A DNA stretch of 64,000 bases from Chrysophaeum taylorii. Taxonomy: Eukaryota > Sar > Pelagophyceae > Pelagomonadales > Pelagomonadaceae. A model generated the notes under the pieces. That model did not search any database, was not told the DNA's origin, and saw only the letters and a list, made by a program, of their open reading frames with translations. Below, piece after piece: positions 3,001-63,200 of this stretch (the stretch's first letter is position 1; each line of letters begins with the position of its first letter). The stretch lies in NCBI GenBank assembly GCA_029834535.1, contig JAQMWT010000314.1:682001-746000 (forward strand). Reading direction: 5' to 3'. The translations under genes were made by a program, and so were the position numbers.

Positions 3001-6000
3001 GCACTACGGCGACTGGTGGTTCCATGGTACTGGCTTCGGGCGAAGGAACGGCGACCAGCAGCGGAAGTATCTTGGTGAGTAGCGCCAACGCTGGTGGTGC
3101 AGGCTCGAGTGGTGCGCTTGTCTTCAGCTCGGGCACATCAAAGTCGGCAAACAGTGGTGGTATCTTTGTCGGAACTGGAGGCGCAACGGCTGGAACTGGT
3201 GGTGCGATCACCACAAGCGTCGGCAGCGGAACCAGTGGAGCTGGTGGTGACGTCTACATGCTTGGCGGTCGCAGCACCGTGGCAACAGGAGGGACAATTG
3301 TTGCCATGAGTGGCGAGGGGACCGCGTCGTCGAGTGGAGCCATCTTCATTTCTAGCGCAAATGCTGGTGTTGCTGGCACTTCGGGGAATCTCGTTTTCAG
3401 CAGTGGTAGCGCCAAAACAGGTAATAGCGGAGCCATTGCACTAGGTTCCGGCGCGGCTACAGCCGGACGTGGTGGAGCCTTGAGTCTTGCTGTTGGCAGC
3501 GGTACGAGCGGAACAGGTGGAGCAGTGCACGTGTCGTCTGGGAGATCGACTGGTGCAACCGGTGGTGTTGTCAGCGTTGCGAGTGGTGAAGGCACAGCAT
3601 CAAGCTCTGGCGTGATTGTGATCGGTAGCACGAACGCTGGCGTGACCGGAACGAGCGGTCGGCTCGTCTTTAGCTCTGGATCGGCATGCACTGGCAACAG
3701 CGGTGGGGTTACCGTGGGATCCGGCCCAGCGACTGGTGGGCGAGGTGGATGTGTTACAATTGCCGTCGGAAGTGGTACTAGTGGCGTCGGCGGAGCGCTG
3801 CAGGTTCAAGCCGGACGTAGCACAGCGTCTACTGGCGGAGCAATATCGATCGCAAGTGGAGAAGGTACAGCGACTAGTAGCGGATGCGTACTCGTTTCGA
3901 GTGCAAATGCTGGAGTCACGGGAGTGAGCGGCGCGTTAGTTTTCAGTTCAGGTGCAGCGACGGCTGGTAGCAGCGGCGCCCTGCTTTTAGGAACAGGAAG
4001 CGCAACAGGTGGTCACGGTGGCGCCGTAAATCTGGTCGTTGGGAGCGGAACGAGCGGTGAAGGTGGTTTGTTGATTGCAAGCGCCGGTCGCAGCTCCGTC
4101 GCGACGGGTGGTTCTCTTATTGTGTATTCGGGTGAAGGAACCGCAACCAGCAGTGGCAGCATCATCGTTGGCAGCGCCAATGCGGGCACGTCAGGAGAAA
4201 GCGGTGTTCTAGTATTTAGCTCTGGCACATCGACATCGGCGAATAGTGGTTCTATTCTTTTGGGAACTGGAAGTTCGACTGCGGGGACTGGAGGGACTGT
4301 ACGGATAAGTGTTGGTAGCGGAACCAGTGGGTCGGGCGGTCGGGTCAATCTGTTCGCAGGTCGAAGTACAGTGGCTACTGGTGGGGCAATCATCGCTATG
4401 AGTGGCGAGGGCACCGCCTCGTCGAGTGGATCAATTTTAGTTTCGAGTGCGAATGCTGGCGTCGCTGGGACGAGTGGAAGGCTTGTATTTAGTACTGGGA
4501 GCGCGAAGGCTGGCAATAGCGGGGCCATTGCGCTCGGCTCAGGTACCGCAACCGGTGGAAGTGGTGGAACATTACGCCTCGGCGTCGGCAGCGGTACGAG
4601 CGGTGCAGGTGGAGCCATGCACCTGGCAGCTGGGAGATCAACAGCCGCAACGGGCGGTGCTATAAGTATCGCAAGTGGTGAAGGCACGGCCTCTAGCTCT
4701 GGCGCCATTGTCCTAAAATCTGCGAACGCGGGCGCGGCTGGGGCAAGCGGTCAGCTCGTCTTCAGCTCCGGGTCGGCGTGCACTGGAAACAGTGGTGCTG
4801 TTGCTGTGGGATCAGGGAGCGCAACTGGGGGTCGCAGTGGCACCGTCGCGATTGTAGTTGGAAGTGGCACTAGTGGTGCGGGCGGTCTTGTTCAGCTTCA
4901 AGCCGGCTTGAGCACTGTGGCAAGCGGAGGCTCGATCGTTGTCAGCAGCGGAGAGGGCACGGCGACAAGTAGTGGTAGTGTGTTTATCACGAGCTCGAAT
5001 GCAGGTGTGGCCGGGACAAGTGGATCACTCGTCTTCAGCTCTGGCTCATCAGTCAGCGGAAATAGCGGTTCAATCTTTGCCGGGTCATGCACAGCAACCG
5101 GTGGGCGAGGTGGCGCTCTAACGCTCTCCGTTGGGAGCGGCACAAGCGGCGTCGGTGGCGCAATCGTGGCAGCGAGTGGCCGAAGCACTACGGCGACCGG
5201 TGGTTCCATGGTACTGGCTTCGGGCGAAGGAACGGCGACCAGCAGCGGAAGTATCTTGGTGAGTAGCGCCAATGCTGGTGGTGCAGGCTCGAGTGGTGCG
5301 CTTGTCTTCAGCTCGGGAACGTCAAAGTCGGCAAACAGTGGTGGTATATTTGTCGGAACTGGAGGCGCAACGGCTGGAACTGGTGGTGCGATCACCATAA
5401 GCGTCGGCAGCGGAACCAGTGGAGCTGGTGGTGACGTCTACATGCTTGGCGGTCGCAGCACGGTGGCAACAGGAGGGACAGTTAATGCCATGAGTGGCGA
5501 GGGGACCGCGTCGTCGAGTGGAGCCATCTTCATTTCTAGCGCAAATGCTGGTGTCGCTGGCACTTCGGGGAATCTCGTTTTCAGCAGTGGTAGCGCCAAA
5601 ACTGGCAATAGCGGGGCCATTGCACTAGGTTCCGGCGCGGCTACAGCCGGACGTGGTGGAGCCTTGAGTCTTGCTGTCGGCAGCGGTACGAGCGGAACAG
5701 GTGGAGCAGTGCTCGTGTCGTCTGGGAGATCGACTGGTGCAACCGGTGGTGTTGTCAGCGTTGTGAGTGGTGAAGGCACAGCATCAAGCTCTGGCGTGAT
5801 TGTGATCGGTAGTACGAACGCTGGCGTGACCGGAACGAGCGGTCGGCTCGTCTTTAGCTCTGGATCGGCATGCACTGGCAACAGCGGTGGGGTTACCGTG
5901 GGATCCGGCCCAGCGACTGGTGGGCGAGGTGGATGTGTTACAATTGCCGTCGGAAGTGGTACTAGTGGCGTCGGCGGAGCGCTGCAGGTTCAAGCCGGAC

Positions 6001-8736
6001 GTAGCACGGTGTCTACTGGCGGAGCGATCTCGATCGCAAGTGGAGAAGGTACAGCGACTAGTAGCGGATGCGTACTCGTTTCGAGTGCAAATGCTGGAGT
6101 CACGGGAGTGAGCGGCGCGTTGGTTTTCAGTTCAGGTGCGGCGACGGCTGGTAGCAGCGGCGCCCTGCTTATAGGAACAGGAAGCGCAACAGGTGGTCAC
6201 GGTGGCGCCGTGAATCTGGTCGTTGGGAGCGGAACAAGTGGAGTCGGTGGTTTGTTGATTGGGAATGCCGGGCGTAGCACGGTCGCGACGGGTGGTTCTG
6301 TCTTTTTGACTTCGGGTGAAGGAACCACAACCAGCAGCGGTGGCATCTTCGTCAGCAGCGCGAACGCAGGCGCCTCGGGTCAAAGTGGTGTGCTCGCCTT
6401 TAGTTCCGGGACGTCAAAGTCGGCAAACAGTGGCTCCATTCTTCTTGGCACTGGAAGTGCGACAGCTGGAACCAGCGGTGCAGTCACATTGAGCGTCGGT
6501 AGTGGAACTAGCGGTGTTGGCGGTCAGGTCAATGTGCTTGGCGGTCGAAGTACCGTAGCAACTGGCGGGTCGATTGTTGCCATGAGCGGTGAAGGCACCG
6601 CCACTTCGAGTGGAGCCATCCTAATATCGAGTGCGAATGCTGGTGTTACGGGGACGAGTGGCAAGCTTGTATTTAGCACTGGAAGCGCGAAGGCTGGCAA
6701 CAGCGGGGCCGTCTCGTTCGGCTCCGGTGCCGCAACGGGTGGAAGTGGCGGGGCATTACGCCTCGGCGTCGGCAGCGGTACGAGCGGTGCAGGTGGAGCT
6801 GTGCATGTTTCTTCTGGGAGATCAACAATTGCTACTGGGGGTGCTATCCGCATCGCAAGTGGTGAAGGCACGGCCTCTAGCACTGGCGCCATTGTCATAG
6901 CATCTGCGAACGCGGGCGCGGCTGGGGCAAGCGGTAGGCTCGTCTTCAGCTCCGGGTCGGCGTGCACTGGAAACAGTGGTGCTGTTGCTGTGGGATCAGG
7001 GAGCGCAACTGGGGGTCGCAGTGGCACCGTCGCGATTGTAGTCGGAAGTGGCACTAGTGGTGCGGGCGGTCTTGTTCAGCTTCAAGCCGGCTTGAGCACT
7101 GTGGCAAGCGGAGGCTCGATCGTGGTCAGCAGTGGAGAGGGCACGGCGACGAGTAGTGGTAGTGTGTTTATCACGAGCTCGAATGCAGGCGTGGCCGGGA
7201 CAAGTGGATCACTCGTCTTCAGCTCTGGCTCATCAGTCAGCGGAAATAGCGGTTCAATCTTTGCCGGGTCATGCACAGCAACCGGTGGGCGAGGTGGCGC
7301 TCTAACGCTCTCCGTTGGGAGCGGCACAAGCGGCGTCGGTGGTGCAATCGTGGCAGCGAGTGGCCGAAGCACTACGGCGACCGGTGGTTCCATGGTACTG
7401 GCTTCGGGCGAAGGAACGGCGACCAGCAGCGGAAGTATCTTGGTGAGTAGCGCCAACGCTGGTGGTGCAGGCTCGAGTGGTGCGCTTGTCTTCAGCTCGG
7501 GAACGTCAAAGTCGGCAAACAGTGGTGGTATCTTTGTCGGAACTGGAGGCGCAACGGCTGGAACTGGTGGTGCGATCACCATAAGCGTCGGCAGCGGAAC
7601 CAGTGGAGCTGGTGGTGACGTCTACATGCTTGGCGGTCGCAGCACCGTGGCAACAGGAGGGACAATTGTTGCCATGAGTGGCGAGGGGACCGCGTCGTCG
7701 AGTGGAGCCATCGTCATTTCTAGCGCAAATGCTGGTGTCGCTGGCACTTCGGGGAATCTCGTTTTCAGCAGTGGTAGCGCCAAAACTGGCAATAGCGGGG
7801 CCATTGCACTAGGTTCCGGCGCGGCTACAGCCGGACGTGGTGGAGCCTTGAGTCTTGCTGTTGGCAGCGGTACGAGCGGAACAGGTGGAGGCTTGCACGT
7901 GTCGTCTGGGAGATCGACAGGTACAACCGGTGGTGTTATCAACGTTGCAAGTGGCGAAGGCACAGCATCGAGCTCTGGCATGATTGTGATCGGTAGCACG
8001 AACGCTGGCATGGCTGGAACGAGCGGTTGGCTCGTCTTTAGCTCTGGATCGGCATGCACTGGCAACAGCGGTGGGGTTACCGTGGGATCCGGCCCAGCGA
8101 CTGGTGGGCGAGGTGGATGTGTTACAATTGCCGTCGGAAGTGGTACTAGTGGCGTCGGCGGAGCGCTGCAGGTTCAAGCCGGACGTAGCACGGCGTCTAC
8201 TGGCGGAGCGATCTCGATCGCAAGTGGCGAAGGTACAGCGACTAGTAGCGGATGCGTTCTCGTTTCGAGTGCAAATGCTGGAGTCACGGGAGTGAGCGGC
8301 GCGTTGGTTTTCAGTTCAGGTGCGGTGACGGCTGGTAGCAGCGGCGCCCTGCTGTTAGGAACAGGAAGCGCAACAGGTGGTCACGGTGGCGCCGTGAATC
8401 TGGTCGTAGGAAGCGGAACGAGCGGTGAAGGTGGTTTGTTGATTGCAAGCGCCGGTCGCAGCACCGTCGCGACGGGTGGTTCACTTATTTTGAATTCGGG
8501 TGAAGGAACCGCAACGAGCAGTGGCAGCATCATCGTTGGCAGCGCCAATGCGGGCACGTCAGGAGAAAGCGGTGCCCTAGTATTTAGCTCTGGCACATCG
8601 ACATCGGCGAATAGCGGTTCTATTCTTTTGGGAACTGGAAGTTCGACTGCGGGGACTGGAGGGACTGTACGGATAAGTGTTGGTAGCGGAACCAGTGGGT
8701 CAGGCGGTCGGGTCAATCTGTTCGCAGGTCGAAGTA
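3..8736 (+). repeat. Higher-order tandem repeat, 2184 nt (8 x 273) nested in 4368 nt (16 x 273)
   Basis: The segment beginning at 1 recurs almost unchanged at 4369 and begins a third time near 8737, a period of 4368 nt. Blocks within it recur at 2184 nt, for example the same internal block at about 530, 2714, 4898 and 7082. Both periods are exact multiples of the 273-nt unit, so the reading frame is kept. Copies differ only by scattered substitutions, some of them synonymous, as expected for recent unequal crossing-over or conversion within the gene. Confidence 0.9.
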
Positions 8737-11700
8737 CAGTGGCGACTGGTGGGGCAATCATCGCTATGAGTGGCGAGGGTACCGCTTCGTCGAGTGGATC
8801 AATTTTAGTTTCGAGTGCGAATGCCGGCGTCGCTGGGACGAGTGGTAGGCTTGTGTTTAGTACTGGGAGCGCGAAGACTGGCAATAGCGGGGCCATTGCG
8901 CTAGGCTCAGGTGCCGCAACTGCTGGATGTGGTGGAGCCCTGCACCTTGCCGTCGGCAGCGGTACAAGCGGAGCAGGTGGATCTGTAACTTTTCACGCAG
9001 GAACTTCGACCGTAGTTACAGGTGGCTCTCTTTTTGTTGGGAGTGGTGAGGGTACGGCAACAAGTTCTGGTTTGATTGCTATCTACAGTACAAATGGAGG
9101 CGTCTCTGGATCCAGCGGCCGGTTGGTATTTAGTTCCGGCACTGCAACAGGTGGTAACAGCGGTGCTATGTTTATAGGATCTGCTCCAGCGACTGGCGGC
9201 ACTGGGGGCCAGATTCGTGTCGTTGTTGGCAGTGGAACAAGTGGCGCTGGAGGCAAAGTTCGTCTTCAAGCGGGAAGAAGCACGGCCGAAACGGGGGGTC
9301 TCCTCTCCGTAGCAAGTGGCGAGGGTACCGCGACGAGCAGTGGCAGCATTTTGATCTCCAGCGCGAACGGTGGAAGTGCAGGTGCGAGTGGCAAACTCGT
9401 CTTTAGCTCAGGAGGAGCTACATCTGGTAACAGTGGCGCGCATCTCGTCGGATCGGCACCTGCGACTGCCGGGCGCGGCGGAGCTCTTCGCCTAGTGGTC
9501 GGCAGTGGTACGAGTGGTGCTGGAGGCTCGGTTGAGAGCGTCGCGGGCAGGAGTACGACGGCAACAGGCGGAGCTGTCATTTGTACATCTGGAGAAGGGA
9601 CAGCGTCGAGCAGTGGGCATGTCGTCATTACTAGTGCCAATTCCGGTTCAAGTGGTCAAAGTGGCAAACTTGTCTTCAGCTCGGGGACCTCCAACTCAGC
9701 AAACAGCGGCAGCTTGTGCTTTGGTACCGGAACCGCCACTTCTGGCCGAGGTGGGTGCTTCATGATTGGCGTGGGCAGTGGTACGAGTGGCGTTGGGGGA
9801 GAAGTGCAAGTTCTAGCTGGTCGTAGCACGGCAGCAACTGGTGGTAGCGTCGAAATGCGATCTGGCGAAGGTACTGCAACCTCAAGCGGTTCGATAATGA
9901 TTTCTACGGCAAACAGTGGTTCGGCTGGATCGAGTGGGAGACTAATCTTTAGTTCTGGAAGTGCCAAATCCGGAAACAGCGGAAGCGTGCTGCTTGGATC
10001 AGGCGCCGCTACTGGTGGTCGTGGTGGGAACGTGCGCCTGAGTGTCGGAAGTGGCACCAGTGGTGCTGGTGGCTCAATTCGATTGAGGAGTGGTAGAGCA
10101 ACAGTCGCGACAGGAGGATCCATAGCTTTCCACAGCGGCGAAGGTACTGCGTCGAGCTCAGGGACAATGTCTATTCGCAGTGCTAATGGAGGCGTCTCTG
10201 GATCCAGCGGCCGGTTGGTGTTTAGTTCCGGCACTGCATCAGGTGGTAACAGCGGTGCTGTGTTGATGGGATCTGCTCCAGCGACTGGCGGCACTGGGGG
10301 CCAGATTCGTGTCGTTGTTGGCAGTGGAACAAGTGGCGCTGGAGGCAAACTTCGTCTTCAAGCGGGAAGAAGCACGGCCGAAACGGGTGGTCTCCTCTCC
10401 GTGGCAAGTGGCGAGGGTACCGCGACGAGCAGTGGCAGCATTTTGATCTCCAGCGCGAACGGTGGAAGTGCAGGTGCGAGTGGCAAACTCGTCTTTAGCT
10501 CAGGAGGAGCTACATCTGGTAACAGTGGCGCGCATCTCGTCGGATCGGCACCTGCGACTGCCGGGCGCGGCGGAGCTCTTCGCCTAGTGGTCGGCAGTGG
10601 TACGAGTGGTGCTGGAGGCTCGGTTGAGAGCGTCGCGGGCAGGAGTACGACGGCAACAGGCGGAGCTGTCATTTGTACATCTGGAGAAGGGACAGCGTCG
10701 AGCAGTGGGCATGTCGTCATTACTAGTGCCAATTCCGGTTCAAGTGGTCAAAGTGGCAAACTTGTCTTCAGCTCGGGAACCTCCAACTCAGCAAACAGCG
10801 GCAGCTTGTGCTTTGGTACCGGAACTGCCACTGCTGGCCAAGGTGGGTACTTTATAATTGGCGTGGGCAGTGGTACGAGTGGCGTTGGGGGAGAAGTGCA
10901 AGTTCTAGCTGGTCGTAGCACGGCAGCAACTGGTGGTAGCGTCGAAATGCGATCTGGCGAAGGTACTGCAACCTCAAGCGGTTCAATAATGATTTCTACG
11001 GCAAACGGTGGTTTGGCTGGATCGAGTGGGAGACTAGTCTTTAGTTCTGGAAGTGCCAAATCCGGAAACAGCGGAAGCGTGCTGCTTGGATCAGGCGCCG
11101 CTACTGGTGGTCGTGGTGGGAGCGTGCGGCTGAGTGTCGGAAGTGGCACCAGTGGTGCTGGTGGTAGCGTCAATTTCCAAAGTGGTCGATCCGCTGCGGC
11201 CACCGGTGGAGCTATTGCAATAGAAAGCGGCGAGGGAACTACGTCAAGCTCAGGAGCTGTAGTCATCACCAGTGCCAATGCAGGCGTCGTAGGATCCAGC
11301 GGTCGATTGGTTTTTAGTTCCGGCACATCGACGGGTGGCAACAGCGGTGCAGTTTTGATGGGATCCGCTTCAGCGACGGGAGGCGCTGGAGGCGAGATTC
11401 GCGTCGTTGTCGGCAGCGGAACCAGCGGTGTTGGAGGTAAAATTCTCCTTCAAGCAGGCAGAAGCACTGCCGAAACTGGTGGATTGCTATCGATCAAGAG
11501 CGGCGAGGGCACGGCGACGAGTAGTGGCAGCGTGGTGGTCTCGAGCGCAAACGGGGGAGATGCAGGCGTCAGCGGTAAGCTCGTCTTCAGCTCCGGAGCA
11601 ACTGCAGCAGGTACGAGTGGCGCTCTTCTCATTGGATCGGCAGCAGCTACGGGTGGCCGTGGCGGTGCAGTGCGTCTAAGTGTTGGGAGCGGTACGAGTG

Positions 11701-14700
11701 GCTCGGGGGGTATCTTGAGAGCAGTGAGTGGGCGAAGTACTGGCGCTACGGGAGGCATGTTTTCTGTTGCATCGGGAGAAGGAACAAGTTCAAGTTCAGG
11801 GGCCATCTACATAGCCTCGGCGAACGCAGGAGTCTCAGGGGCCAGCGGGCGTCTCGTCTTCAGTTCAGGCTTTTCGAGTACAGGGAACAGCGGCGGCGTA
11901 CGAATAGGCTCGGGCGCGGCGAGTGGTGGTCGAGGAGGAGCAGTGACTCTCTCTGTCGGCTCAGGTACCAGCGGGGTGGCTGGCTCCATAGAGCTTCTCT
12001 CAGGTCGAAGCACCATCACCACTGGAGGTTCGGTGATCATTCAAACCGGTGAAGGTACCGCGACAAGTAGCGGGTTCATCGCCATCTTGAGCTCGAATGC
12101 TGGCGTATCTGGAACAAGTGGTCGACTCATATTCAGTTCAGGAAGTACTAGCTCGGGTAACAGCGGTGACATCGCGATCGGAACCGGTGCTTCAACTGGC
12201 GGTCGGGCGGGCGAGCTCCGCGTGACGGTGGGTAGTGGTACGAGCGGCGCAGGGGCATCAATACTGTTGGCAGCGGGACGAAGCACGTCGCGCACTGGCG
12301 GTGAGCTGCGCTTTATGTCTGGCGAGGGCACAGCATCAAGTAGTGGTTCTATCCGAATCACCACGATGAATGCTGGGATCACCGGCACGAGTGGTCGCTT
12401 GTCGTTTTCCACCGGCGTATCGACAACAGGAAACAGCGGTGCCGTGCTGGTGGGATCGGGTGCTGCGACAGGAGGTCGTGGTGGGGCAGTGTCCCTTTCG
12501 GTTGGAAGTGGTACGAGTGGTTCCGGTGGGAGCCTTTTGCTTCTCTCGGGACGTAGCAGAGGTGCCACGGGGGGCGCGGTTACGATCGAATCGGGAGAGG
12601 GCACGGCCTCTAGTAGTGGCATGATATGTATCGCGAGTGCGAATGCGGGCAGTGCTGGTGCGAGCGGTCGCCTTGTGTTTAGCACGGGCACGGCGGTGAC
12701 CGGGAACAGCGGGTCAATTCACGTTGGATCTGGCTCCGCAACGGCTGGTCAAGGTGGAGCCGTTCTCATAAGTGTTGGAAGTGGCACCAGTGGTGTTGGC
12801 GCGAGACTCAGTTTATTGGCTGGGAGGAGCACGATAGCCACAGGAGGTTTGCTGTCCATATTTGGAGGGGAAGGTACAGCATCGTCAAGCGGGGCGGTGT
12901 TGATCACGTCCGCAAACGCAGGAGTTTCTGGCGCTAGTGGAAGGCTCGTTTTCAGTTCTGGAATTGCAACCGCAGGAAATAGTGGGGCGATCCTCGTTGG
13001 GACTGGTGCGAGCACAGGAGGCAGAAGCGGCGACATTCGTATCACTGTCGGATCCGGCACGTCGGGAGCTGGCGGCGACCTGAAGATGAGTGCTGGCGTG
13101 TCCTACGGCGCATCGTCAAAGACTGGGGGGTCGCTAACAATCGAAAGCGGTGCCGGCTCTGCGACGAGCAGCGGATCTGTCATCATCTTTACCGCGAATG
13201 CTGGTACCGCTGGCTCCTCGGGTAGCATTGTGCTGTCAACCGGGGTCTCGACGACGGGGAACAGCGGTGCCATCAGTCTCATCAGTGGTGATGCAACGAC
13301 CGGGAGTGGAGGTGGCTTGTCTCTCTCCGTTGGTGCCGGCGACAGCGGTGTCGGCGGAGTCATATCTATCACTGCGGGCGCAACCACCGCGTCGAGTGCT
13401 ACCGGAGGATCCGTCACTATTTCGGGCGGTGCGGCGACCGCTGAAGGTGGTGCAGTCGCGGTTCGCTCGGGCACAGGAACTTCAGCCACGGGCGGTATTG
13501 CGTGGGTTGTTTCTGGCGAGGGGGCGGCGACCAGCAGTGGTGCTATGCTCATCATGTCGTCGAATGCTGGCACGTCAGGCGCGAGCGGGAAACTGGTGTT
13601 CAGCACGGGAACTTCGAAGACGGGCAACACGGGAGCCGTGCTTGTTGGTACAGGCTCGGCGACAGGAGGTACCGCCGGTTCTGTTTTCATATCTGTCGGT
13701 AGTGGCACGAGTGGCTCTGGCGGTGGCATCTCTTTGTTCGCAGGTCGCAGCACGGTCGCGACGGGGGGTTCCACGCAAATCTTATCGGGCGAAGGCACGG
13801 CGTCCAGTAGCGGCAGTCTGGTGGTCATGAGTGCGAACGCGGGGGCCTCAGGAGGCAGTGGCCGCTTGGTATTCAGCTCGGGCTCGGCAAAGGCTGGCAA
13901 CAGTGGCGGCCTGTGGCTTGGCACGGGAGCCGCAACCGGGGGGCGCGGCGGCTCGGTCGTGCTCAGCGTTGGAAGTGGAACCAGCGGCGCTGGTGGTCTG
14001 TTGGTTGTTGCTGCTGGGCGGACCACGGATCTGACTGGTGGGTCTCTCCAAATTCACAGCGGAGAAGGAACGGCGTCCAGCAGTGGAATGATCGCGGTGA
14101 GTAGTGCCAACGCGGGGTTGTCGGGAACTAGCGGCCGGCTCGTGTTTAGCTCTGGCGTTGGCAACGGGGGGAACAGCGGCGCACTCTGCATTGGGACTGG
14201 TAGTGCGACAGATGGACGTGGTGGTGCTGTATATCTGACCGTGGGAAGTGGGACGAGCGGCGCCGGCGGCATGCTGTACGCGGAGGCGGGTCGCAGCACG
14301 GCGAAGACGGGCGGATCGCTTCACGTTCGCGCAGGCGAAGGAACTGCGACGAGCAGCGGGAGCATCACGATTCGTACCGCCAATGCCGGCACAGCTGGAA
14401 CAAGCGGGCGTCTTGTCTTCAGTACGGGTTCGTCTTGCACTGGAAACAGCGGATGTCTCGTCTTGGGCACGGGCGCCGCGACGGCGGGACGTGGTGGGTC
14501 TGTGATGCTAGCGGTCGGAAGCGGGACGAGCGGCGCTGGAGGCTCAATCCAGATGTTTGCTGGCCGAAGCACCGTGGCAACGGGAGGCGATGTAACTCTA
14601 TACACCGGAGAGGGTACGGCTACCAGCAGCGGGGCTATTTTCGTATCTAGCGCGAACGCGGGGGTCGCTGGAGCAAGCGGAATGCTGATCTTCAGCTCGG

Positions 14701-15451
14701 GCTCAGCGTGCAGTGGAAACAGCGGTGCCATCCTTATCGGTTCTGGTGCCGCGACCGGTGGGCGTGGCGGTTTAGTCAGCATCACCGTCGGAAGTGGAAC
14801 GAGTGGCGCGGGAGGTGCCGTATACATTTCGGGCGGGCAATCAGCAGCAACAACGGGAGGCTCGGTGCGTTTGTTGTCCTTATTGTTGTTGTATTCGTAC
14901 GTGTGACGTCTGCCACTACGCAGGTCACGTTGAAGCCTGGCGCGTCGACCTCTGGTACCGATGGGTCTCTCTACATCACGAACCCGACGACGGCCGCGGC
15001 CGTCGTAACCGTCAGTTCGAGCCAATTTGGAGTGTCGACGACAACGGTTTCAATCACGGCGACATCAACCATCACCATCGACTCGTCCACGACATTGACG
15101 CTCACTGGTACGAATGGAGTCACGTTCAGTTCTTCCTACGTATACGGTTTCGAGACGGGCTCCGGGACCGTCAGCAGTTCGGCGGTCTCCGTCGCGGCGA
15201 TGGCTGGGTCGATCACGTCGGATAGTGGGTCTTTGCTCGCCGGTAGCTCAACACAGACGTTTACGCTCACCAATTCCCGAATACTGGCAACAAGCTTGCT
15301 CTTCGTCCATACGAAGTCGTCGTGCACGAACGGCTACGTAATCGTCACGGAGGCAAGTCCCTCTGCGGGTTCGGCGAGCATCACGGTCCTCAATCTTGGA
15401 TCGGCGTGCACGGATGCGTACACATTAGGGTTTATCGTCATCAACGCATGA
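3..15451 (+). CDS. Giant glycine/serine-rich beta-solenoid-like repeat protein (3' part, 5' end outside window)
   Basis: The open frame enters from the left edge and runs to 14864. A 59-nt intron (14865-14923, GTGCGT...CTACGCAG, phase 0) joins it to a second exon, 14924-15451, ending in TGA; without splicing the frame would stop at 14906. The visible part is about 5,130 residues. The repeat unit is 91 residues (273 nt), made of six 15-16 residue rungs of the kind GRSTVATGGSIVVSS, GEGTATSSGSVFITS, NAGVAGTSGSLVFSS. Alternating small residues with a hydrophobic beta-strand in each rung suggests a long beta-solenoid. The last ~175 residues are not repeated, are Thr/Ser/Val-rich and contain a paired-Cys segment (SCTNGYV...SACTDAY), giving a distinct C-terminal cap. 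I infer an extracellular or surface structural or adhesive role; no catalytic motif is visible. N-terminus and any signal peptide lie outside the window. Confidence 0.85.
9092..11162 (+). repeat. Second higher-order tandem duplication, 1092 nt (4 x 273)
   Basis: Sequence at about 9092-10070 is repeated at about 10184-11162, an offset of exactly 1092 nt, again a whole number of 273-nt units. It is a different duplication from the 2184-nt block, so this gene has expanded by several independent frame-preserving events. Confidence 0.85.
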
Positions 15452-50894: not shown

Positions 50895-53800
50895 ATGGAG
50901 ACGGCGAGCGCATATCTGCTAGGGAAACTCATCAACGACTTCAAGGATTTTGCGGACGCCCGGGTGACGGCCGACGACAAGAGCAAGGAGTTGCGCGTCA
51001 GCATGGCGAACCTCTACGCCACGCTGCTCAGCATGCAGGATCAAAGGGACAACCTGAGCGTGCACGTCCTCGAGTCGACAAAGGTGACGCTCGACAGTGT
51101 TTTGGAAACGTGCCGCGAGTGGAGTGGCAAGTCAAGCTTCGGCAAGTTTTCGGACGGCACGAAGTACGCGAAGCTGTTCAGGCGGCTCGAGGAAGCGCTC
51201 GATAAGCGCGTCAGCGAGCTCGCGCTCGCGAAGACGGCCGCGAACGGGGACGTGCTGCAATCTCTCCGGCGCAAGCAGAACTCGATCTTCGCGCGGATCG
51301 AAGGTGGAAACGAGATGACTTATGAGTTCGACCCGCCGGGCCCGGACAACAGGCAGAGGGCTTCGCTGCTGGGTCAGGGCACGTTCGGGCGTACGCACCG
51401 GGTAAAAGAGCGCGGAGGGGTGGGCGTGCAGCGAGCGATGAAGATCATTGACGTCGACCGCGCGCGCGACGTCGGGGTCGATATCAAAAAGCTACACGTC
51501 GAGGCCAGACTTTTGGCCAGCCTCAACCATCCGAACATCGTGAGCTACGTCTCGAGCTTCGAGTACGGCAGCGACTTCTTCATTATCACGGAGTACGTGG
51601 GCGGCGGCCACCTCGGGCTCCAGATCGGCAAGTCGCAAGATGTGGCGACGTTACGTTCGTGGGCGTGCCAGATATTCAGGGCGTTGGAGTACATTCACGC
51701 GCAGGGCGTGCTCCACCGAGATCTCAAGCCGGAGAACATCCTCCTCGACGTTGGGAACCTGTTCATCAAGCTCTGCGACTTCGGCCTCGCTGCTCAGATG
51801 AGGACGGCTGGCCTGAGTTCGTTGACCGGTACGATGAACTACATGTCGCCGCAGAAAGCTACGAACAATCAGCGGTATGATGCCGCCGATGACATGTGGG
51901 GTTCCGGCTGCCTGCTCGGCGAGCTGCTCACGGGCACGCCACTCTACGTGCGTTGCCCACGAATGTCGTTCTTCAACGACACGCCGGCTGTCATGGATGT
52001 CTGCACCCAGAGCCGCGAGGCGGACGGGGTCCTCGGTGCCATCGTGTGCGACCTCCTCAAGACAGTTCCGACGCAACGTCCGTCCGCGGCCGAAGCCGCA
52101 AACCGTCTTGAAGGAGGCCGTGCTGCGGGTTTCGAGCGCTTGCCTCGAGTTTCTGAAGAACCAAAGCAGGGTGAGGAGCAGGCCGAAAGGGTGTGCCCCG
52201 AACTAGAAGATGAACATCGACGCGAAAAAGGTGAGCGGCAGGCGATAGAGGCCATAAGGATGCGCGACGACGAGATGGCGTCCGAGGAAGTGCGCGAACC
52301 ACAAAAATACGAGGCGGCGGCGCGACAGGCTGCTGAAAAGAATCGACTCGATGAGGCTGATCTGCAGGTGATGGAGTCTGAGGCCATTGAGGCCATTCGG
52401 GAGCGTGCTGAGCGGGTCGCGGCGATCGAAGCCGAGCGAATGCGCGCCGAGCGGGTCGTGGCGATCGAGGCCGATGCCGAGCGGATGCGCGCAGAACGGG
52501 AAGTAGCGATCGAGGCCGAAGCCGAGCGGATGCGCGCCGAGCGGGTCGTGGCACTCGAGGCCGAGACCGAGCGGATGCGCGCAGAACGGGAAGCAGCGAT
52601 CGAGGCCGAGGCCGAGCGGATGCGCGCCGAGCGGGTCGCGGCGATTGAGGCCGAGACCGAGCGTGTGCGCGCTAAACGGGAAGCAGTGATGGAGGCTGAA
52701 GCCGAGCGGGTCGCGGCGATTGAGGCCGAGACCGAGCGTGTGCGCGCTAAACGGGAAGCAGTGATGGAGGCTGAAGCCGAGCGGATGCGCGCCGAGCGGG
52801 TCGTGGCGATCGAGGCCGATGCCGAGCGGATGCGCGCAGAACGGGAAGTAGCGATCGAGGCCGAAGCCGAGCGGATGCGCGCCGAGCGGGTCGGGGCGAT
52901 CGAGGCCGAGACCGAGCGGATGCGCGCAGAACGGGAAGCAGCGATCGAGGCCGAGGCCGAGCGGATGCGCGCCGAGCGGGTCGCGGCGATTGAGGCCGAG
53001 ACCGAGCGTGTGCGCGCTAAACGGGAAGCAGTGATGGAGGCTGAAGCCGAGCGGGTCGCGGCGATTGAGGCCGAGACCGAGCGTGTGCGCGCTAAACGGG
53101 AAGCAGTAATGGAGGCTGAAGCCGAGCGGATGCGCGCCGAGCGGGTCGTGGCGATCGAGGCCGATGCCGAGCTTGTGCGCGCAGAACGGGAAGCAGTGAT
53201 CGAGGCCGAAGCCGAGCGGATGCGCGCCGAGCGGGTCGGGGCAATCGAGGCCGAGACCGAGCGTGTGCGCGCAGAACGGGAAGCAGCGATCGAGGCCGAG
53301 ACCGAGCGTGTGCGCGCAGAACGGGAAGCAGTGATCGAGGCCGAGGCCGAGCAGATGCGCGCAGAACGGGAATCAGCAATCGAGGCCGAAGCCAAGAAGA
53401 TGCGCGCCGAGCGGGTCGTGGCACTCGAGGCCGAGGCCGAGCGAATGCGCGCAGAACGGGAAACAGCGATCGAGTCCGAGGCCGAGCGGATGCGCGCCGA
53501 GCGGGTCGCGGCGATTGAGGCCGAGACCGAGCGTGTGCGCGCTAAACGGGAAGCAGTGATGGAGGCTGAAGCCGAGCGGATGCGCGCCGAGCGGGTCGCA
53601 GCAATCGAGGCCGAGACCGAGCGGATGCGCGCAGAACGGGAAGCAGCGATCGAGGCCGAGGCCGAGCAGATGCGCGCCGAGCGGGTCGGGGCACTCGAGG
53701 CCGAGACCGAGCGGATGCGCGCAGAACGGGAAGCAGCGATCGAGGCCGAGACCGAGCGTGTGCGCGCCGAGCGGGTCGGGGCAATCGAGGCCGAGACCGA

Positions 53801-56800
53801 GCGTGTGCGCGCAGAACGGGAAGCAGCGATCGAGGCCGAGACCGAGCGTGTGCGCGCAGAACGGGAAGCAGTGATCGAGGCCGAGGCCGAGCAGATGCGC
53901 GCAGAACGGGAATCAGCAATCGAGGCCGAGGCCAAGAAGATGCGCGCCGAGCGGGTCGTGGCACTCGAGGCCGAGGCCGAGCGAATGCGCGCAGAACGGG
54001 AAACAGCGATCGAGTCCGAGGCCGAGCGGATGCGCGCCGAGCGGGTCGCGGCGATTGAGGCCGAGACCGAGCGTGTGCGCGCTAAACGGGAAGCAGTGAT
54101 GGAGGCTGAAGCCGAGCGGGTCGCAGCAATCGAGGCCGAGACCGAGCGGATGCGCGCAGAACGGGAAGCAGCGATCGAGGCCGAGGCCGAGCAGATGCGC
54201 GCCGAGCGGGTCGGGGCACTCGAGGCCGAGACCGAGCGGATGCGCGCAGAACGGGAAGCAGCGATCGAGGCCGAGGCCGAGCAGATGCGCGCCGAGCGGG
54301 TCGTGGCACTCGAGGTCGAGACCGAGCGGATGCGCGCAGAACAGGAAGCAGCAATCGAGGCCGAGGCCGAGCAGATGCGCGCCGAGCGGGTCGTGGCACT
54401 CGAGGCCGAGACCGAGCGGATGCGCGCCGAGCGTATGGCTGCTATCGAGCCCCAGGCCGAGCGAATGCGAGCCGAGCGGATGGCTGCTATCGAGGCCGAG
54501 GCCGAGCAGATGCGCGCCGCGCGGGTCGAGGCTATCGAGGCCGAGGCCGAACAGATGCGCGCCGAGCGGGTCGCGCGCGAGCATCGAGTTCAACGACAAC
54601 GCGAAGAGGCCGCGCGGAAGGCGTTACCAAGTTACGGAGCGAGCGAGCGCTTGCTCCGAAATTGCAGAATGACCTGGCGTCGGGTCCTAGAGCGTCTCGA
54701 AACGAACGATTGCGATTTGAGGGAGCTCAATCTTTGGTGCGAACGCGGCGCGTTAGGAATTTATCAATGCTAGTTTGGGTTTCTCGGATTGACTTTGTAT
54801 TGTCCATAGTGATAGCGGAATCGGCGACCAGGATGCGGTCCGCCTCGCAAAGTCCCTCGAGAAGAACACGTCGCTCCAGGCGCTCGGTCTCTCGTGCGTT
54901 TCCCTTTGGCGTTTTCGCGAGAATTGCGAACGTTTTTTTTTTTTTTAATTGGATTTTACTAAAACGCCCCGATTTTGCCGACGAAATTTCGCAGGGCCAA
55001 CGGTATTGGTGCCGAGGGCGCGACACGCCTCGCAAAGTCCCTCGAGAAGAACAGGTCGCTCCTGAAGCTCGGTCTCTCGTGCGTTTCCCTTGGGCGTTTT
55101 CCCGAGGACTGAAAACGATGATTTTTTTTTTCCTGCACGGATTTCCCCAAAACCCCTGATTTTGCCGACGAGATTTCGCAGGTACAACAGTATTGGCGCC
55201 GAGGGATTGGCACGCCTCGCAGAGTCCCTTGAGAAGAACACGTCGCTCCAGACGCTCCATCTCGAGTACGTTCCCCGTCGGCGTTTTCGCGAGAACTGCG
55301 AACGATGTATATTTTTTTTCTGATTTTCTGAACTTCTTATATCCAAAACCCCCGATTTTGCCGACGAAATTTCGCAGGTCCAACGGTATTGGTGCCGAGG
55401 GCGCGGCACGCCTCGCAAAGTCCCTCGAGAAGAATAGGTCGCTCCAGACGCTCCATCTCTCGTGCGTTCCCCGTCGGCGTTTTCGCGAGAACTGCGAACG
55501 ATGTATAATTTTTTTCTGAACTTCATATATCCAAAACCCCCGATTTTGTCGACGAAATTTCGCAGGTCCAACGGTATTGGTGCCGAGGGCGCGGCACGCC
55601 TCGCAAAGTCCCTCGAGAAGAACAGGTCGCTCCAGACGCTCTGTATCTCGTGCGTTCCCTTGGGCGTTTTCTGCGAGTGATGTAAATTTTTTTTCTGCAC
55701 GGATTTTCCCAAAACCCCAAAATTTACCATCGAAATTTCGCAGGTACAACGGTATTGGAGCCGAGGGCGCGGCACGCTTCGCTAAGTCCCTCGAGAAGAC
55801 CAGGTCGCTCCAGACGCTCTATCTCTCGTGCGCTTCCCTTCGGCGTTTTTCTGCGAAAGATGTAATTTTTTTTCTGCGCGAATTTCCCCGAAACCCCCGA
55901 TTTTGCCGACGAAATTCCGCAGGGGGAACAATGTTGGTGACGAGGGCGCCGCGCACCTTTTAGCGATTCTCGAGAAAAATAGGACACTTCAGACGCTAGT
56001 TCTCTCGTACGTTTCCCGTCGGCGTTTTTGCGAGGACCGAGCGAGACTTAACTTTATCCTGAACTGATCTTTCCGAAACCTCCTAATTTCCCGGCGAAAA
56101 TTCGCAGGGAGAACAGTATCGGCGATCTGGCAGCAGCGCGCCACGCAGAGTCCCTCGAGAAGAACAGGTCGCTGGAGACGCTCATTCTCGCGTGCGTTTC
56201 ACGTCGGCGAGGATTGCGAACGATTTATTATTATTTTTTGGACTGATTTTCCCAACCTCCCGATTTTTCTATAGCGACGAAACATATTCGCAGGAGAAAT
56301 GGTATCAGTGCCGAGGGCGTAGCACGCCTCGCTAAGTTCCTCGAGAATTACACGTCGCTCCTGACGCTTAATCTCGAGTGCGTTTCGCGTCTGAGATTTT
56401 TGTCGCGAGGAATGATAAGTTTTTTTTTTTTTTAACTGGTTTTTCCCACGAACCTCCAATTTACCTACGAAATTCCGCAGGCACAACAATATTCGCGATC
56501 AGGCCGCGGCACGCCTCGCAAAGACCCTCGAGAAGAACGTGTCGCTTCAGACGCTCAAACTCAAGTGCGTTTTCCCCGTCGAAGCTGATTGTGTGCACTT
56601 AACGATTATTTTTAGTTCGGAATTAATTTTCCAAAACCCCCTTTTAACTGACGAAATTTCGCAGATGGAATTGTATCGGCGATCAGGGCGCGGTCCACCT
56701 CGCAGAGTCCCTCGAGAAAAACAAGGCGCTCCAATCGCTCGATCTCCAGTGCGTGTGTTTCCCGTCGGCGTTCTCACGAGGACAGGCCTTTTTTCCCAGA

Positions 56801-57238
56801 ATCCCTGAGCTAACTAGCGGAATTTCACAGGGTTAACAGTATCGGCAATCAGGGAGCGGCACGCCTGGCAGCGGCCCTCGAAAAGAACGCGTCGCTCCAA
56901 TCGCTTGATCTCCAGTGCGTTTTTTTTTTTTTCTGAGTTGATTTTACCATGAAAAACCTACTTACCTCCTACGTTTCGCAGGGACAACAGGATCGGCTAT
57001 CCGGGGGCTTTGCGCCTCGCACGTTCCCTCTCGAAGAACACGTCGCTCCAGAAGATCAATCTTGCGTGCGCATTTCCAGGCCGGCGTCGGGAAATTTTTC
57101 GTTTTTTTTCCAGCAAAAGTTCGTATCGCTCATCCTAACAACACCGACGTGCGACGCAGGTATATCGAACTCGACGAAAAAAAGATTCAACACCTTCGGT
57201 CTATCGCCAAAGACGCCGGGAAGAGTATCGGACTTTAA
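50895..57238 (+). CDS. Helical domain - protein kinase - coiled coil - leucine-rich-repeat protein, 15 exons
   Basis: Exon 1 is 50895-54736 (first in-frame ATG). Thirteen 84-nt exons follow: 54810-54893, 54995-55078, 55182-55265, 55378-55461, 55566-55649, 55744-55827, 55923-56006, 56108-56191, 56294-56377, 56481-56564, 56665-56748, 56831-56914, 56982-57065. The last exon is 57160-57238 with TAA. All introns are phase 2 (GTGCGT/GTACGT...CAG) and the model gives an open 1670-residue protein. Residues ~1-130 are helical and recall four-helix-bundle domains of the MLKL/HeLo type (weak). A complete kinase domain (~155-420) has GQGTFG, AMKI, HRDLKPEN and DFG; SPQ replaces APE. About 50 copies of a 15-residue charged repeat (~495-1230) form a long coiled coil. 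Thirteen 28-residue LRRs of ribonuclease-inhibitor/NLR type (NGIGAEGAARLAKSLEKNRS) follow, then a basic helical tail. The layout suggests a signalling receptor or scaffold; an immune role is inference. Confidence 0.85.
52380..54590 (+). repeat. 45-nt tandem repeat encoding the charged coiled coil
   Basis: About 49 units of 45 nt encode variants of AIEAEAERMRAEREV. Larger blocks are themselves duplicated, for example GAGACCGAGCGTGTGCGCGC-containing stretches at about 52600-52790 and 52960-53150, and 53210-53600 versus 53760-54140. All changes keep the frame. Expansion by slippage or unequal crossing-over is likely, so alleles probably differ in length. Confidence 0.9.
54810..57065 (+). repeat. 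Tandem exon-intron units, one LRR per 84-nt exon
   Basis: Exons are all exactly 84 nt, and the introns resemble each other too: a GTGCGTTTCCC start, a CGGCGTTTTCGCGAG element, a poly-T tract and an AAACCCCCGATTTTGCCGAC end before CGCAG. The units of about 180-195 bp are therefore duplicated as exon plus intron, with later units (from about 56107) more diverged than the central ones. Confidence 0.9.
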
Positions 57239-60234: not shown

Positions 60235-63200
60235 CTAACCGTCCGGGCGCCGGTGCAGGGACCCGGCGGCCGAGAGACAGACGTAGGGGCACCAAGTTGG
60301 CGTTTCTGTAAGCGTATTGGCGCTCCCTGAAGTGTGCCTGTGCGTATTGTCGTTGCAGGAGGTGGGCGGTGGCTGCACCGCCTTCGACATACTGGATGCC
60401 CGCCAGAAGGAGCCGGGCACGCTCAAGGTGCACCGTGATGGTAAGCCGCCGGTAGAGGCGCGTTGTCTGAGCCGCCGAGGCTGCCGCGAGGGAAGGGAAG
60501 GAGCACCCTCCGTGAGGCCAGTGTTGATACCAATTTGACGGGCAACACGGTGGAGGAGACCACGTAGGTTGTCACTACCCTCCGCGAAATTACCAATTAC
60601 AAACCCGAGCTCGGACCCGAACTCCGCGTGGTGGTCCCGGAACGGGCCCCGCGAGGCTGCCGGGTCGACCCCGCAGAATTTCCTGTCGACGTACCCAGCG
60701 TGCGCAACGTATTCGCGTTGAATGTTGTTGGCCCGCTTGTCGACCGGGGTCGGGGTGCCAAAATTCGCGGCGGCGATCGACGTTAGTGGTCGGATACCGC
60801 GACGGGCAGAATACGATCGTTTTTTTGCCCTCGGCGGAGACCGCCCGGAGTAGGCGTTCCTGGTGGCTTCGCGATTGATAAGTCAGGAACGAGCCTCGAC
60901 GTGGACTCGAAAGAAGGGAAAGCATTCCGGGCGAGGCGTGGGACGCAATTCCAAAACAAATCTGAGGGCTCGACCGTGTGCCGGACGCCCCCTTTCGTGC
61001 ATGAGGCCACTCAACACGTAAAGCACCGAGTCGTGCATACAGGACCGAGCTCCGTTGCGGTTGACCAAGCGATTGTCCGTGAGTACGACGTTACCGTTCG
61101 CGTCGAGAACCCGCTGGGTGTCGCCAAGAATGCCACGCCCGGGCAGCGGTACGTAGGCCGGCGACGGCAGCCCGAAGAAGTTGCCAAAACGACTTCCGGG
61201 AAGTCGCCGTTCGAGAATGCCAGATATCGCGAGGGCCATGAAGCCACCCAGGCGGTGGAGAGCTTGTCGGCGCACAGGAAGGACGCGTTGCGGACGTCAC
61301 GCGCAGGGAGAGCACGACTAAGGCTCGCCTCAAGGCGCTCGGCGCGAAGAGCCTCGCGTTGTCTCGTCACGACCCGCTGTACCTTCCCGTACGGGGCTCT
61401 GGCCGATGTGTCAATGCCCGCGCATTGTACTGGCGCGGCCAATGGGCCCTCGTCAGGCCTCCCGGCGTCCGCCTGCAAACGGCTCCAAGCGCCACACAAA
61501 GAAAAGAAAAGAAAAGCGCGGGCCAGCAAGGACGTTGGTTGGGATGCCGCAAGGGTCGCGAAGCGCGAGCTCATGTTGGCTGCGTCGAAAGAGTTACGCC
61601 CCAGCAAGGGTGCGAGCGGCTCGCAGAAACCGCTCACTGTGCCGCCCATGGCCGGAGAGCGGCTGAGCATGCGGGGGAGGACCGCACAGAAGGTCCCAGT
61701 GATGAAAGCCGCATCAGCGACATCGGCACGCGAGCGCAATCCAAGGCCACGCAACCGACCGGGAAAACGCAGGCGGCGTGTCGCAAAGGTGTCCGCACCC
61801 ACAACATCGCCGGCAGAGCCCAGCGCCGTGTAGTAGGTAGGTGTCAAGGACCGCGGCGTCGAAACGGGTGAGGGCTGCACGCGAGTCGGCTGGGTAGGCG
61901 TGCTGGGTAACGTGGTCTGCAAGAGAAGTAGCACAGTAGTACATGACAGGATGGGCGGCATTGGCGCGAGTGTGACGTGAGTGTTCGTTGAATAGTTTCA
62001 ATAATCTTATTGCACATTCTGTCGATTCTCTCGCTCACCTCTTGCCGGGCAAACGACGGGGTGCCAACCGCAATGCCGCCAATCGTGATGCTCTCACTCT
62101 CACGACCCTAATTCCGCGGAGAGTTCGAAACGAACAGCCGCCCACTGTGCGCCAATCCACTAGATCCTTGACGGAGGGGAGGTGGGCCGGGCAGTGGAGG
62201 TAGGACTTGTCAAGCCGCAGTGTACCGTTGCGCACCTTGATCTCCTCACCATACGCCAGAGCTGCCAGCACAGCTTCGCGTTGGGGGACTTCCATGACAT
62301 GACGCCGTCATCGAAGAAGAAAAAGCGGGCACAACCCCCGTGCGAGCAGAGACGGTCGTCTGATGCCTTCATCTCGGGGAAGGCAGCCACCGCGCATACA
62401 GCCGGGAAGGTGGGCATGCCCCCCGGCGTCTCCGCCGTTCTCTGAACGGAAGGAGGCAAAGTCGCCGCCGTCAAGAACTCAATGGGGGAAAAAAAAGGGC
62501 GTCAACTCGGCCTCTGCAAGTCGTCCGAGCGACGACGCAAGGTTTGCCCCCTGCAGCGTAGCATCGCTGTATCGACAGTCGCGCGTTCGATGCGGTCGAA
62601 GCAGTTCTCCTCGTCGAGCTTGATGATGGCAAAATCGGCACGTAGCTCCTCCAACAAAGAGCGGAGTCCAAAGATGAACTGAGAGATCCCGTGAGGTACG
62701 CCAACGCCGCACTGAACTGGATAGCAATGTGCGGCAACATCGTCACGGATTCGTAACGCGAAAGCGCGGCCAGTGGCTCTCGCGCGCACGCAGCCCATCG
62801 CAATAGGACGCGCGTCCGGCACCGCCTCCGGGGACTCGAGAGGTTTTTTCAAGAGCGGCACGAGGAGGCTGGTACCGACGTAGGTGTAGTACCAGGCGGG
62901 AAGCTCACCGGCAGCATAATACGCAGACTCGAAAAACTCGTTTACAAGAGACATGACGCGCTTGGCCTTCGGGCGGGGGAATTCTTCGTACGCCAGGACG
63001 GAGAGATGCTCGTTCCGGAGGAGCCCTGCGGGCCCGATCCCCGCCTTGGGTGGCAAGCGGAGATAAACCTCGGTAAGGTCGAGGACAATACGCGGCGCGG
63101 AGCCGCGATCGAAGCCCCCAATCGGCGGCCGATAGCGCGCGACGGGTGTTTTGTAGCTGCCATCTGGGCGATACATAACGCGGGCATCGCTGGCGACGCC

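Follow-up and report, generated by a model that had tools for sequence, protein, structure and literature searches.

A candidate receptor gene of an alga that joins an MLKL_N-related helical domain, a protein kinase, a charged rod, and LRR exons

The window, which is the whole 64,000-nucleotide stretch of DNA analysed here, contains a gene whose frame, rebuilt from the sequence, runs through 15 exons (5013 nt) and encodes 1670 residues without an internal stop (Table 1). Its 14 introns are of the GT-AG type, 67-112 nt long, and in phase 2 in 14 of 14 cases. Exon 1 measures 3842 nt and is followed by 13 exons of exactly 84 nt, each of which corresponds to one LRR, and by a last exon of 79 nt. 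It was thus confirmed that the helical domain, the kinase, the rod, and the LRRs belong to a real single frame. In the LRR part, Pfam recognizes LRR_6 in nine stretches (E 6.1e-61). The gene model is more than a chance arrangement because 84-nt LRR exons and end exons recur across the scanned loci: under one scanning rule, such LRR exons are present in nine of eleven loci (one of the nine, a broken copy, has a single exon), and a similar last exon with a stop in four of the eleven, namely the window and the contigs C8, C600, and C308. A sequence-only reading of this locus had proposed one 1670-residue frame of 15 exons with 14 phase-2 introns and 13 LRRs, and this holds.

Table 1. Parts of the window gene, with positions in the window and the basis of each assignment
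Feature	Position	Strand	Basis
Whole gene	50895-57238	+	frame rebuilt from sequence
N-terminal four-helix domain, MLKL_N-related, residues 1-125	50895-51269	+	MLKL_N 16.0 bits (cut-off 27); homology to STAND-linked domains; helices in model
Bundle-kinase linker, residues 126-155	51270-51359	+	position only; model helix 90-137 extends into linker
Protein kinase domain, residues 156-403	51360-52103	+	Pkinase E 7.5e-50; conserved in paralogues
Charged rod of 15-residue repeats, residues 406-1241	52110-54617	+	TRF and self-match
LRR N-terminal cap, end of exon 1	54618-54736	+	19 genome matches at E up to 1, own included; alignment
13 LRR exons of 84 nt and the introns between them	54810-57065	+	gene model; LRR_6
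LRR exons 1-5	54810-54893, 54995-55078, 55182-55265, 55378-55461, 55566-55649	+	
LRR exons 6-10	55744-55827, 55923-56006, 56108-56191, 56294-56377, 56481-56564	+	
LRR exons 11-13	56665-56748, 56831-56914, 56982-57065	+	
Last exon, C-terminal cap and stop	57160-57238	+	gene model; similar end exons in C8, C600, C308

The genome in which the gene lies (70.8 Mb, 697 contigs) contains 84 matches to the light-harvesting family; for one of them a PDB comparison was made, in which algal LHCI, FCPI, and VCPI chains came closest. The organism is therefore a photosynthetic alga. Residues 1-406 have 103 matches in the genome, most of which are other kinases (102 of 275 candidates scored). Open bundle-kinase frames were found in C8 (99%), C359:114607 (97%), C339 (68%), and C359:156172 (67%), and in a further relative in C318 (58%) the frame starts at the kinase. 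The copies C359:3032 and C309:223819 are broken by stops, while C8 and C359:1-7000 match the window past the gene ends and into the flanks. The window gene is one member of a varied family, and its modules recur in other arrangements in this genome, as described below.

Pfam detected the kinase domain in a scan of residues 1-512, and its catalytic motifs are present except for APE, which reads SPQ. The motifs that we take to be kept are the glycine loop, lysine 183, HRD, N281, and DFG. The earlier description of the kinase motifs as intact is thus right for all but the APE position, where SPQ is common to the window and four close paralogues. The sixth sequence of this comparison, the C318 kinase, departs further, with a threonine replacing the helix-C glutamate. 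Among the best 60 of 2682 matches, the solved chains nearest to the window kinase are CAMK2, PKA, and S6-type kinases. Its Ka/Ks is 0.42 against C339 and 0.42 against C359b, and constraint relative to these two more distant paralogues is supported by the comparison; among three near-identical copies the ratio ranges from 0.10 to 1.25 on few changes, the values of 0.73 and 1.25 each resting on 10 changes. The window protein would be expected to have kinase activity.

All four N-termini scanned have MLKL_N as their top Pfam family when ranked by E-value, at 14.2-18.8 bits (16.0 bits for the window domain, Table 1) and each time below the cut-off of 27. Residues 1-152 have 20 matches in the genome, including C359:238459 (E 1.8e-9) and C359:242009 (E 1.5e-8), in both of which the helical domain is followed by a STAND-type NTPase; in C359:242009, 14 WD40 stretches come after the NTPase. 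The domains of these two proteins reach 32.5 bits (above the cut-off) and 25.2 bits against MLKL_N, respectively. A local HMM of the two STAND-linked domains scored the window domain at 50.1 bits, a value that none of 2000 shuffles reached, and hhalign gave 97.8% for the window domain against the STAND-linked domains and 96.1% for the latter against TKL-type MLKL_N domains. Between the window domain and the TKL-type MLKL_N domains of the genome there was no significant direct link: the score of 2.1 bits was equalled or bettered by 258 of 2000 shuffles, and hhalign gave 2.9%. Because the steps from the window to the STAND-linked domains and from these to MLKL_N are significant and the direct link is not, the profile comparisons demonstrate homology to MLKL_N via the STAND-linked intermediates only. 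A single-sequence model of residues 1-152 predicts four helices (4-26, 31-49, 56-77, and 90-137) with a mean pLDDT of 68.8, and fold searches with this model did not single out MLKL from other bundles. Of the earlier proposal of an MLKL-like N-terminal bundle, the four helices of the model and the kinship through STAND-type relatives are retained; the domain's own score stays below the MLKL_N cut-off, and the fold searches do not point to MLKL in particular. The predicted bundle has no net charge by simple count and, with Ka/Ks values of 0.71 against C339 and 1.02 against C359b, is weakly constrained. Residues 126-155 would, by analogy, occupy the place of the MLKL brace.

An MLKL_NTD joined to a kinase is known from the wheat resistance protein Pm13 (PMC10951266), an immune gene product that resembles the window protein in having an N-terminal bundle (MLKL-type in Pm13, MLKL_N-related in the window), a linker, and a kinase with catalytic residues. 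In the available text of that source, Pm13 is without rod and LRR and its kinase belongs to the plant LRR_8B subfamily, whereas the window kinase is CAMK/PKA-like (best 60 of 2682 matches). When measured against the Pm13 type, the window kinase is complete except for APE and the bundle scores 16.0 bits, below the cut-off of 27; a plain fusion of this type ending at the kinase is ruled out, as the rod and 13 LRRs come after it. Animal and plant MLKLs also place the bundle ahead of a kinase fold, but as they are presented in the accessible parts of PMC10951266 and PMC12881547 they have a pseudokinase and no in-chain LRR sensor, whereas the window protein has catalytic motifs and a putative sensor fused to the kinase. 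The window gene was accordingly rejected as an MLKL proper, since its kinase with its motifs is CAMK/PKA-like (best 60 of 2682) and not a TKL-type pseudokinase. In fungal NLRs with HeLo/MLKL-like N-termini, as far as PMC9815663 was available, MLKL-type bundles are exchangeable effectors of STAND receptors, a layout that C359:242009 shares, with WD40. Those receptors contain a STAND NTPase, whereas the window protein has a kinase and rod in the middle and LRRs as its candidate sensor; it was rejected as an NLR because Pfam scans of residues 1-512 and of the LRR part revealed no STAND NTPase, although LRRs do form its C-terminus as in such a receptor.

The rod is 836 residues long, 48% of them charged. 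TRF reports a 45-nt unit in 48.6 copies at window positions 52427-54570, and the protein matches itself at 61% when shifted by 15 residues and at 64% when shifted by 30, which bears out the roughly 50 copies of a 15-residue charged repeat that had been claimed. A rod was found in all family members read. In the four paralogues with both rod ends found it measures 836, 471, 236, and 75 residues (836 in the window vs 471 in C8), so that it resembles a spacer whose length is not tightly fixed. Structural proteins often contain long charged rods and LRRs, and this, together with the presence of the rod in every member read, would suit a cytoskeletal or other scaffold kinase, in which rod and LRRs bring the kinase to some structure of the cell while the bundle serves for docking. 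We regard such a role as quite unlikely in view of the loose rod length (75 to 836 residues), the diversification of the LRR face described below, and the occurrence of bundle homologues at the head of STAND-WD40 proteins.

Across 54 LRR exons from eight loci, the most variable residues of the 28-residue unit are 1, 28, 3, and 26 (entropy 3.50, 2.90, 2.79, and 2.60, respectively). According to the LRR consensus, residues 26, 28, and 1 line the concave face and residue 3 lies beside it. Residues 2, 4, 22, 25, and 27, which are structural, are nearly invariant (entropy 0-0.58), several of them having been required by the exon filter itself. Selection was counted by the Nei-Gojobori method, not by site models, on a set that left out the broken C359 copy, C309, and C359c (1, 0, and 0 exons, respectively) as well as one 87-nt exon. 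The concave-face positions 24, 26, 28, and 1, which were fixed from the LRR consensus before the count and after the exon listing had been seen, have a dN/dS of 3.8, and all other positions, including the very variable position 3, have a dN/dS of 0.52, a value that the filter lowers by demanding conservation at several structural positions. When the 20475 sets of four positions are ordered by dN, this set comes 13th; it comes 6th in the window alone, 33rd in the other 41 exons, and 26th in C454 alone; the ranks are descriptions and not tests, because repeat exons are not independent.

The comparison with C8 follows the same pattern at close range. The two copies are 99.5% identical in the upstream flank, 99.3% in bundle and kinase, and 95.1% (with 52 gap columns) in the downstream flank, and in the seven LRR exons that could be paired, 44 of 588 nt (7.5%) are different. 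Amino-acid changes affect 9 of 21 exposed codons vs 15 of 168 others (Fisher p 2e-4); the pairing covers seven of the nine detected C8 exons, as C8 exons 2 and 7 have ambiguous partners. Taken together, these comparisons demonstrate LRR exon turnover and an excess of amino-acid change on the predicted binding face, and they support a face diversified as expected of a sensor. Alternatively, the variable rod and LRRs could be products of neutral turnover, with unequal crossing-over and gene conversion acting among the repeats of a gene that has little function. Tandem arrays, broken copies (e.g., C359:3032 and C309:223819), the divergence from C8 of the downstream flank as well, and the non-independence of repeat exons as samples would all agree with this. 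We nevertheless hold neutral turnover to be very unlikely: the 15 exons stay open, the kinase Ka/Ks is 0.42, exposed positions show dN above dS rather than equal to it, and the structural LRR positions hardly vary, though the filter required this in part. Both neutral turnover and a scaffold kinase are less likely than a receptor.

Comparable exon arrays are known from other organisms. Brown-algal LRR-ROCO genes (PMC11378527) likewise have one LRR per phase-2 exon, exon shuffling, and four selected concave sites; in the available part of that source the exons measure 72 bp and accompany a ROC-COR GTPase, whereas the window gene has 84-nt exons with a kinase and bundle, and Pfam scans of its residues 1-512 and of the LRR part revealed no ROC-COR GTPase. 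Tetrahymena LRR genes (PMC6564038) also contain arrays of equal-length phase-2 LRR exons, some fused to protein kinases, but with 90-bp exons, mostly purifying selection, and no MLKL-type bundle described in the accessible portion of the article. A literature search did not find the fusion of these elements or a mixed repertoire in an alga. The layout thus appears to be undescribed, with known parts: one-LRR phase-2 exons and MLKL_NTD-kinase immune proteins.

The modules of the window gene are also found apart. A search of the genome for MLKL_N yields 21 matches with E up to 1. Of these, 11 exceed the curated cut-off (one of them only together with its neighbours); among 14 control genomes, one gave a match, which lay below the cut-off. 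The C25 and C521 matches probably represent one locus assembled twice. In C565, C8:41495, and C309:112598, MLKL_N is followed by a kinase, as in the classical MLKL layout, the C309:112598 kinase being nearest to TAK1 and RAF; in C25 MLKL_N also precedes a kinase, with the presumed remainder of the kinase and Arm repeats in the adjoining frame. At two places in C356 a helical domain that matches the window domain (E 1.3e-6 and 2.4e-6), with no match to Pfam MLKL_N, stands directly before an LRR cap, without a kinase. With E up to 1 the cap itself has 19 occurrences, counting that of the window, and the last two are weak. In C454, C600, and C575 it lies behind a different, DAC-like N-terminus. 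In two of these three, the first 175-182 residues give a Pfam DAC match that stays below the cut-off (E 0.0085 and 0.027). The genome contains 21 matches to this module of about 800 residues, the first part of which weakly resembles DAC, the diadenylate cyclase domain of bacteria; its DAC motifs are presumably altered. At C309:613112, in the segment C309:613000-617000, a single frame joins the DAC-like module, an MLKL_N-like domain (26.7 and 29.5 bits in two scans), and ankyrin repeats. Adjacent matches with equal frame lengths suggest a pairing of the DAC-like module with STAND in C454 (twice), C165, C396, and C599, and of the bundle with STAND in C44. The STAND profile used is NPHP3_N, which also has matches in 9 of 14 control genomes. 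From these adjacent matches and the frames read it follows that the bundle and the DAC-like module each occur on STAND and on LRR platforms, and the searches thereby show that the bundle and the LRR platform recur in other receptor-like proteins of the genome.

These arrangements would fit a combinatorial, NLR-like immune repertoire, a tentative and somewhat doubtful proposal. MLKL-type bundles and DAC-like modules would then be interchangeable N-terminal effectors before kinase-rod-LRR, LRR-alone, STAND-WD40, or ankyrin sensors, with sensor, kinase, and executor fused in the window protein. Turnover of the symmetric 84-nt phase-2 exons would generate the diversity of the LRR branch. Skipping any combination of these exons could leave the reading frame intact, so that splice forms could add receptors.

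For the window gene itself, we see about an even chance that it encodes an intracellular receptor-executor, with the LRRs as its sensor and with the kinase and the MLKL-type bundle as executors of defence or cell death. The 13 LRRs would form a curved solenoid whose concave face, given its position-specific diversification, may bind a variable ligand. Binding could be passed on or clustered via the long charged rod, bringing kinase domains together, and the kinase might phosphorylate itself, the bundle, or a partner. The MLKL/HeLo-like four-helix bundle would then have membranes as its target or serve as a signal domain that oligomerises, and would lead to defence or regulated cell death, an execution step modelled on Pm13, MLKL, and HeLo proteins. 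One chain would thus combine the sensor with an activating kinase similar to RIPK3 and an executor resembling MLKL. The earlier suggestion of an LRR sensor linked by a long rod to a kinase effector in a protist is supported by the architecture, the diversified LRR face, and the kinase motifs; beyond these we infer expression, ligand binding, activation order, membrane action, immunity, and cell death. On the other hand, the gene could serve self/non-self or mate recognition instead of pathogen defence, with the LRR-kinase-bundle protein deciding cell compatibility as HeLo does in fungal incompatibility. Such a role predicts equal LRR diversification, and allorecognition in fungi involves HeLo and MLKL-type domains according to the available text of PMC12881547; it is rather unlikely here, as nothing in the analysis points to cell fusion in the alga.

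A survey of 67 protist species (PMC7539657) reports, in its available text, that homologues of the regulators of necroptosis and pyroptosis in mammals were absent, with MLKL sought by homology only. In the algal genome studied here, 11 MLKL_N matches exceed the cut-off, several of them in receptor-like settings. If the receptor-executor reading is true, algae, like fungi and plants, have linked MLKL-type death domains to sensors, and named genes are available for testing how algae recognise viruses, bacteria, or one another.

A few further observations concern the surroundings of the family. C318:211500-221400 contains a 2021-residue frame from the kinase onward, in which LRRs are present and the charged region is much longer. 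At C359:238100-246600, neighbouring STAND proteins are headed by the window-type helical domain, on a contig that also carries several family copies. What we take to be Copia-type retroelement-like frames lie beside a broken gene copy on the minus strand of C309:217000-226500. In the window itself, positions 3-14906 hold an open frame of 4967 residues with glycine-, serine-, and alanine-rich repeats and no Pfam match, and positions 60900-61900 hold a dispersed repeat with 48 genome matches.
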